33,847 nt of DNA, from the NCBI GenBank assembly GCA_030613055.1, contig JAUWMR010000048.1:1-33847 (forward strand). The letters run 5' to 3'. The notes beneath the pieces were generated by a model. The model was not told the origin of the DNA and made no database searches. It was given only the letters and a program-made list of their open reading frames with translations. Position 1 is the first letter of the stretch; the number at the start of each line of letters is the position of its first letter. Both the position numbers and the translations under genes were made by a program. Source of the DNA: Desulfobacteraceae bacterium (lineage in GTDB: Bacteria > Desulfobacterota > DSM-4660 > Desulfatiglandales > Desulfatiglandaceae). Positions 32,839 through 33,847 of the stretch are shown piece after piece.

Positions 32839-33285
32839 ATGGGATACAAGGAATTGGGTAAAGAGATCAGTTTTGCAGATTTGGCGGTTAGTAAGTCTCT
32901 GGAGCATAATCGCAGCCTCAAGATGATGAATAGGATCAATCAGGTGGTAAAATGGAGGAATGTAGAGGCTTTATTGAGAGAGTACTACGAAGTTGGCACG
33001 AGTAAAGAAGGCGCAGACGCCTATCCACCATTGATGTTATTAAAATGTATGCTGCTCCAGAAATGGTTTCGGATTCCATCAGATCCTGAGCTTGAGAACC
33101 AGATTAATGACAGGATTTCTTTTAAGAAATTTCTGGGACTTCCGCTTGACAAGCCATCCCCTGATCACTCCACATTTTCGAGGTTCCGTAGTCGGTTATC
33201 TAAAGAGGCGATGACTAAGCTGAACAATGAAGTGTTACAAGGATTTGAGAAGAAGGGGTTAAGCATCAATGAAGGGATACCTTCC
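32839..33285 (+). pseudogene. IS5-family transposase, N-terminal fragment
   Basis: About 149 residues of a transposase with the DUF772-type N-terminal domain: YPPLMLLKCMLLQKWF, SDPELENQINDRISFKKFLGL and PDHSTFSRFRSRL. Homology ends at SINEGI. The frame continues to 33372, but that tail is encoded by hairpin-forming sequence and does not look like transposase. None of the DDE catalytic acids, which lie further along, are present, so the fragment is inactive. The strong ribosome site is intact. Confidence 0.85.
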
Positions 33286-33335
33286 GGTTCGTCACATGTT
33301 ATGTGCCATGAACCTACAGGTCATAGAGCTGTAGG
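33286..33335 (+). other. Paired hairpins at the left border of the GIY-YIG insert
   Basis: Two hairpins sit where transposase homology stops. The first has stems GGTTC (33286-33290) with GAACC (33310-33314) and CACAT (33293-33297) with ATGTG (33301-33305). The second is CCTACAG (33313-33319) with CTGTAGG (33329-33335). They share two bases and precede the GIY-YIG start by 16 bases. They may be a folded RNA or end structure of an inserted element. Confidence 0.5.
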
Positions 33336-33350
33336 CGCCCATTTCGCGGT

Positions 33351-33611
33351 ATGTATTCAGTCTACGCAATAAGAAGTCTTACGAATGGACGAGTCTATAT
33401 TGGCCAAACAAAAAATCTTGAGGGTAGGCTTAGGGATCATAACGCAGGCCGCGTTCAGTCAACAAGAAGGGATAAGCCGTGGGTGCTACATGCTTTGCAC
33501 AGGGTGAGTAATCGAAAAGAAGCAATGTTTGTCGAATGGAGAATAAAACGTTCAAGAGGAACACGGCTGAAATGGTTAACGAAAAACCGAGTAGACGATG
33601 ACAGGGTCTAA
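33351..33611 (+). CDS. Small GIY-YIG endonuclease-domain protein
   Basis: An 86-residue stand-alone GIY-YIG (UvrC N-terminal/URI-like) domain. YAIRSLTNGRVYIGQT carries the variant first motif (YAI) and the YIG, R28 in GRLRDHN is the usual catalytic arginine position, and E in AMFVEW is the usual metal-binding glutamate. Such proteins cut DNA as homing or repair nucleases, and many small ones have no known role. It overlaps the non-homologous tail of the transposase frame and lacks a ribosome site. It is located inside the IS, which suggests a passenger or a nested mobile element. Confidence 0.8.
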   Translation: MYSVYAIRSLTNGRVYIGQTKNLEGRLRDHNAGRVQSTRRDKPWVLHALHRVSNRKEAMFVEWRIKRSRGTRLKWLTKNRVDDDRV

Positions 33612-33625
33612 GACTCGTAGGGTAG

Positions 33626-33703
33626 AACCCGGAGAGGGACACGATGTGTAGGCAAATGGCGTTCAACTTATTTCGAGGGTCTAAATTGCTTGTAACTGCT
33701 TAA
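33626..33703 (+). pseudogene. Transposase C-terminal remnant
   Basis: After a TAG the frame reads 25 residues, including MCRQMAFNLFRGSKLL, then TAA. This is like the C-terminal end of IS5-type transposases (a helix with NL near the stop). It is in a different frame from the N-terminal fragment. About half of the transposase is absent between the two, replaced by the GIY-YIG segment. Confidence 0.5.
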
Positions 33704-33763: not shown

Positions 33764-33847
33764 ATATGGGCTGCTAAACAAGGCGATAATAGGCAAAATA
33801 GTTAATTGAAATAGAGAGTCAGTGGAAAATTAAGTGACAAATTTTGT
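33764..33847 (+). repeat. 84-base terminal direct repeat (same as 1-84)
   Basis: All 84 bases are identical to 1-84 (starting ATATGGGCTGCTAAACAAGG, ending ACAAATTTTGT). The copy lies at the very end of the window and continues naturally into base 85. It is either a circular-assembly overlap or the shared part of two direct IS copies flanking the cluster. Confidence 0.95.

Follow-up and report, generated by a model that had tools for sequence, protein, structure and literature searches.

The window analysed here, which is the entire contig C26 (33,847 bp), carries near its right end an IS5-type transposase gene in two pieces, and the question that it raises is what lies between the pieces and how it came to be there. 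Our comparisons point, with moderate confidence, to a small homing-type element at 33280-33637, whose sole gene encodes a minimal 86-aa GIY-YIG nuclease and whose copy in the window would represent an off-target insertion in the transposase gene.

The N-terminal part of the transposase (residues 1-147, to ...S-I-N-E-G-I) occupies 32839-33279 on the forward strand and is recognised by DUF772, by IS5_4 and by alignment with L052, an intact transposase of 354 aa that scores 176.8 bits against the IS5_4 cut-off of 140 and thus belongs to the IS5 family. The 177-aa ORF that begins at 32839 matches DUF772 (Pfam, E 2.6e-25) and NCBIfam IS5_4 (E 6.2e-22, 78.3 bits), as a fragment remaining under the cut-off of 140 and likewise under those of other IS5-family models, and the N-terminal part is 71% identical to residues 1-147 of L052. 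A tblastn search with the 354-aa L052 transposase placed these residues at 32839-33279 and residues 333-350 at 33638-33691, the latter with 78% identity over 18 residues, within a C-terminal remnant (D-T-M-C-R-Q-M-A-F-N-L-F-R-G-S-K... stop) at 33638-33703 on the same strand. Residues 148-332 of 354, which we take to be most of the catalytic domain, are missing, so that 185 codons have given way to 358 bp. Another copy from the same genome (L003, at the end of contig C54) is uninterrupted: it is identical to the window over 55 bp ending at 33279 and from there on keeps encoding transposase, and this sets the left edge of the insert (33280-33637, forward strand) at 33279/33280; the right edge, set by the L052 alignment and by a CCGGAG end common to the relatives described below, is uncertain by 2-3 nt. 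The first-pass annotation was right that transposase homology lies on both sides of the insert, while the edges it gave, 33285 and 33626, move to 33279 and 33638, and the comparison with an intact IS copy that it had proposed links the two joined halves, both of which L052 matches. Positions 1-84 and 33764-33847 of the window are identical to each other, as in a circular molecule or an assembly overlap.

Between the transposase halves there are, as first annotated, an intact small GIY-YIG gene and two hairpins in its leader. The gene (33351-33611, forward strand) encodes 86 aa, belongs to the GIY-YIG superfamily by its match to PF01541 (E 1.7e-16, 60.7 bits, cut-off 22.6) and overlaps at its start the read-through transposase frame, which stops at 33372. 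Residues Y5, Y16, R26, H30 and E62, presumably the catalytic positions, are invariant in an alignment of four members. Phage homing-endonuclease families match the protein weakly (E between 6.7e-6 and 9.4e-5), and the solved proteins nearest in sequence are 1zg2 (E 1.7e-8) and 1ywl (E 3.9e-7), with SLX1 and 1mk0, an intron endonuclease, next in order. In five of the six members the nuclease measures 77-86 aa, and no separate DNA-binding domain is seen. The nine bases to the left of the junction, GAAGGGATA, recur within the nuclease ORF, a repeat that 10 of 200 shuffles equalled.

The insert region occurs once in its own genome, and its DNA gave a single 42-bp match in the other 296 of the 297 phylum genomes (L018, where no such element was seen). 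Similar DNA was not found in plasmids, the nuclease had no tblastn match in plasmids and phages, and one junction pattern had no match in viral contigs. At the protein level, 19 of the 297 phylum genomes (its own included) matched the nuclease query at E <= 1e-8; outside its own genome L033 scored best (82.9 bits), followed by L034 (51.5 bits) and a series from 46 bits downward. A profile search of 85 genomes of the class returned L087 at 113.8 bits with the next locus at 61.9, and a profile search of 23 genomes of the class of G237 returned L119 (130.1 bits) and L128 (127.3 bits) with the next new locus at 72.5, the profile having been built from rows that included L033, L087 and L034 and neither L119 nor L128. 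Among 395 phylum genomes the own genome, L033 and L034 alone passed 1e-17, and L033 alone passed 1e-15 in three genomes of the class of G049. As L118 is the same place as L034, there are five distinct close relatives (L033, L034, L087, L119 and L128), and the flanks of all five were inspected. A tree of 31 rows puts them closest to the window in path length but holds no supported clade uniting the window with the five; the fork with values 67/72 also takes in six other rows. Back-translated nuclease patterns gave 5 loci in genome contigs, the flanks of which were inspected, and 14 in viral contigs, and no match with L087 as the query, and a C-terminal codon pattern gave 9 loci in viral contigs.

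Small GIY-YIG genes outside this close group have other surroundings. Of 30 distinct loci, 19 (16/21 and 3/9) have a tRNA gene no more than 400 nt away, as against none of the six close-group loci; the tRNA-adjacent loci are L005, L006, L035, L037, L039-L041, L044-L048, L088-L090, L121, L123, L125 and L013. At L010/L013 a truncated nuclease frame of 48 residues (48% identity over 46 residues) adjoins a tRNA-Leu gene and is not in a four-helix gene. By eye, some of these outside genes sit amid partial tRNA copies with short palindromes, and one (L008, G000:C81:17022-17243) lies within sequence recognised as a 23S rRNA gene.

All five top-scoring relatives interrupt genes of family PF05635 ('23S rRNA-intervening sequence protein', a four-helix bundle) at profile position 46-51. 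When the host halves were scanned separately, all ten matched PF05635, the N halves ending at 46-49 and the C halves beginning at 49-51, and nine exceeded the curated cut-off, the exception being the C half of L033 (29.6 bits). The insertion point falls in the codons N-[IL]-[ASV]-E-[GA], within the Glu codon in L033, L087 and L128 and 7 nt further on in L034 and L119. The last two are 92% identical in protein and may stem from one insertion, and we therefore count at least four lineages. In L033 (G049:C29) the nuclease frame stays open beyond the element into the host half that follows, for a total of 154 aa and a possible fusion protein, whereas in the other four relatives it ends within the element. 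The window is the sole close member seen within an IS. Because its top five relatives interrupt PF05635 genes at one position, the nuclease is not part of the IS.

A fixed site in homologous host genes is one mark of homing; spread of the nuclease independently of its host gene is another. Pairwise among L033, L087 and L128, the nucleases are 53-59% identical and the split host halves 23-38%. L034 and L119 share 94% DNA identity in the nuclease (dS 0.21, dN/dS 0.16), against 89% (dS 0.48) and 72% (dS not computable) in the host halves. Between these two sets the excess is smaller, with nucleases at 40-50% and host halves at 21-42% apart from one value of 57% over 14 columns, so that independent spread is clearest in L033/L087/L128 and in the pair L034-L119 and weaker between the sets. 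Either exchange of the nuclease between host genes or a slower evolution of the nuclease than of those genes would account for this, and the fixed site favours exchange as the sequences stand. We read the insert as homing-type because the nuclease is better conserved than the split host halves, as expected of such an element. The nested mobile element of homing type that the first-pass annotation had suggested thus gains from both observations, the common position in another gene family and the better-conserved nuclease.

The copy in the window departs from this pattern, as it is located in a transposase gene and its site resembles the usual one weakly. We scanned the uninterrupted IS piece with a target matrix made from 12 four-helix sites (nine from the own genome; three with short flanks joined). 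The best position (AGC ATC AAT GAA GGG on N-x-x-E-G) has the left junction in register and scores 4.7 bits, in the top 0.15% of window positions, with p 0.013, 0.022 and 0.031 for the best score within 9, 15 and 21 nt; the source sites of the matrix score 10.5-23.0 bits. The right junction region has no target resemblance (score <=1.0), and the five best matrix positions in the 3.4-kb L052 locus (4.3-10.9 bits) exclude the I-N-E-G of L052. IS copies elsewhere that hold no nuclease are broken close to the residues where the window copy breaks: L053 ends with residue 146, <=3 nt from the left junction of the window; in L072 a join leads from about residue 336-339 to about 142; and L157 (G436:C33:13765-14418) joins 153 to 286 in frame, with residues 154-285 deleted and an open frame of 253 aa. 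Against an intact copy, the two pieces of L157 overlap by 9 bp, as in a short-repeat deletion. This shared break region may, from the sequences compared, be repeatedly cut or fragile.

The leader of the nuclease gene holds the two hairpins, both on the forward strand. Hairpin 1 (GGTTC-gt-CACAT-gtt-ATGTG-ccat-GAACC, 33286-33314), found by folding and in the stem list, has a perfect 5-bp stem at 33293-33305 and an imperfect extension to 33286-33314; hairpin 2 (CCTACAG-9 nt-CTGTAGG, 33313-33335), also found by folding, has a perfect 7-bp stem. When the leader was shuffled 5000 times with its dinucleotides preserved, 0.2% of the shuffles held two such disjoint hairpins, as did 36 of the 4826 71-mers in the contig, by a criterion chosen after the hairpins had been seen; in folding energy the leader is unremarkable (z -1.28, or -0.98 for a slightly longer stretch). 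Apart from the overlapping loci of the window itself, the exact hairpin patterns are absent from the 159 loci examined, and a hairpin pattern joined to a start codon was not found in viral contigs. The leaders of the window and its relatives differ in length and sequence and are too unlike to align; those of the relatives (24-60 nt) fold no better than their shuffles. The first-pass annotation had made its proposal depend on hairpins conserved with the nuclease gene, and on these results they are not. No part of the window matches Rfam at the gathering score.

In the window, the left end CCTTCCGGTTC (33280-33290, forward strand) is an imperfect inverted repeat (11 matching bases, two 1-nt gaps) of the right end GAACCCGGAGAGG (33625-33637, forward strand). 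Near their left ends the five relatives share CTCCG, and their right ends read CCGGAGGG; the window counterparts are CCTTCCGG (left) and CCCGGAGAGG (right). The inverted repeat of the window was equalled by 132 of 1000 shuffles and alone is not significant; the corresponding counts are 96 in L033, 15 in L087, 0 in L128, 124 in L034 and 128 in L119, which makes the repeats significant in two of the six only (L128 and L087). The elements measure 267-366 bp, most of which is ORF.

How else could a nuclease gene come to replace the middle of a transposase gene? An ordinary deletion might have broken the transposase, with the nuclease element entering during illegitimate repair and without site recognition. 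The breaks of L053, L072 and L157 near the same residues without a nuclease speak for this, as does the weak resemblance of the window site to the usual target; yet the insertion site is fixed in the five relatives, the left junction is in register with that target, and the break of L053, so close to the window junction, fits repeated cutting as well. We consider this account unlikely, though it deserves to be kept in mind. An assembly chimera is suggested by the position of the insert, since only about 210 bp separate it from the end of a metagenome-type contig whose first and last 84 bp are identical. The right end of the insert, however, matches the right end of the relatives, and its two flanks both come from one kind of transposase in one orientation; we judge a chimera very unlikely.

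The remaining alternatives give the hairpins a function. The first-pass annotation had also offered an IS derivative whose cargo is the nuclease with a structured RNA and which intact IS copies move in trans. Such copies exist in other genomes (L052, L054 and L057) and the hairpins are present. However, the composite was found once, with no second example in the own genome, 296 phylum genomes, plasmids or, by one junction pattern, viral contigs, where several copies with common ends would be expected; the relatives lack the hairpins; and no clear IS terminal repeats surround the window copy (best local score 8-9, w/o chance control), nor did a comparison of five IS copies and the window give a clear pair (local scores 8-12, the best in L052, again w/o chance control). 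We see very little chance that the insert is such cargo. An RNA-guided nuclease, with the leader hairpins in a guide RNA complementary to the target, would explain how a protein that in five of six members measures 77-86 aa, and in which a separate DNA-binding domain is not seen, nevertheless finds a fixed site in the relatives. This is hardly credible, given that no consistent complementarity links element and target: the longest antisense matches are 6-9 nt and were equalled by 7 to 183 of 200 shuffles, the lowest counts being those of L128 (9 nt, 7/200) and L087 (8 nt, 19/200). The leaders also vary in length and sequence, and Rfam recognises nothing in the window at the gathering score. 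Neither a structured guide RNA nor IS-driven movement is thus supported, with unshared hairpins, no consistent complementarity and a single composite found.

For the homing-type element that we favour, the following course of events can be proposed. The nuclease would cut an unoccupied four-helix site at the codons N-[IL]-[ASV]-E-[GA], and repair of the break would copy the element into the cut site. One copy, drawn off target by a look-alike site, would have entered the IS5-type transposase in or close to ...S-I-N-E-G-I, and residues 148-332 would have been lost through untidy repair, insertion and deletion being one event.

By its comparisons, the element is predicted to work like a free-standing homing endonuclease gene, with the window copy off the usual site. 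Free-standing GIY-YIG homing endonuclease genes include the I-TevI-like and Seg genes. The elements described here resemble them in the GIY-YIG catalytic domain, in the fixed insertion place of the relatives and in a nuclease exchange independent of the host gene; they differ in the small size of the protein (77-86 aa in five of six members) and the lack of a visible separate DNA-binding domain, and in lying within bacterial protein genes that they interrupt, with no intron recognised. IStrons and group I introns with homing nucleases also place a nuclease gene with hairpins within another gene, but the window has no Rfam match and the elements of 267-366 bp are mostly ORF. The small UPF0213 GIY-YIG proteins 1zg2 and 1ywl are the closest solved proteins by sequence and similar in size (107 and 96 aa), whereas the five nearest relatives of the window are inside four-helix genes. 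A further likeness is to 23S rRNA intervening sequences with an S23p ORF, as PF05635 is the host gene family of the five relatives (PMC4990558); the subject there is the 23S rRNA intervening sequence itself, and the words homing and endonuclease are absent from that text. Among the titles and abstract openings of the matches listed by a literature search with many journals outside its scope, no GIY-YIG element in four-helix genes was described.

The four-helix genes themselves look mobile in the genome of the window, because they have inverted, locus-specific flank repeats and dispersed copies with common ends. PF05635 matches there number 26 at E <= 1; 15 exceed the cut-off, and some are fragments of a single copy. 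Short tandem repeats, specific to the locus and inverted between the two flanks, accompany 8 of the 11 ORF-bearing four-helix genes tested there (L092-L098, L100-L102 and L110), with scores of 17-31 in the eight and of 5, 8 and 12 in the other three, compared with a 95th percentile of 14 and a maximum of 17 for mismatched flanks. In the same test, four of the five interrupted relatives (L034, L087, L119 and L128) scored 17-30, in each case more than any of 500 shuffles of the flanks. Decayed or internally deleted four-helix copies (L099, L104-L109, L112, L113, L115 and L117) are dispersed at unrelated places in the own genome, four of them at contig starts, with six common left ends (GGATCATCTCCAAATTGG...) and seven common right ends (...TTGGAGAAGAACC), and form a dispersed mobile repeat that is probably non-autonomous.

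A wider proposal, which we advance tentatively, is that there are self-sufficient elements of ~270-370 bp, each with a GIY-YIG nuclease of ~80 residues, that have specialised on one codon site of four-helix genes which are themselves dispersed mobile units, so that one selfish element would parasitise another. Look-alike sites in other mobile genes, IS5 transposases for instance, would be open to attack by the nuclease too, with loss of their catalytic part. If this is right, the element would be a very small self-spreading DNA element, and it would raise the question of how a nuclease of ~80 residues without a separate DNA-binding domain selects a single codon site among genes that share 23-38% identity. 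GIY-YIG mini-elements, four-helix-bundle units and IS5 elements, three kinds of mobile DNA, would moreover be linked within one genome.
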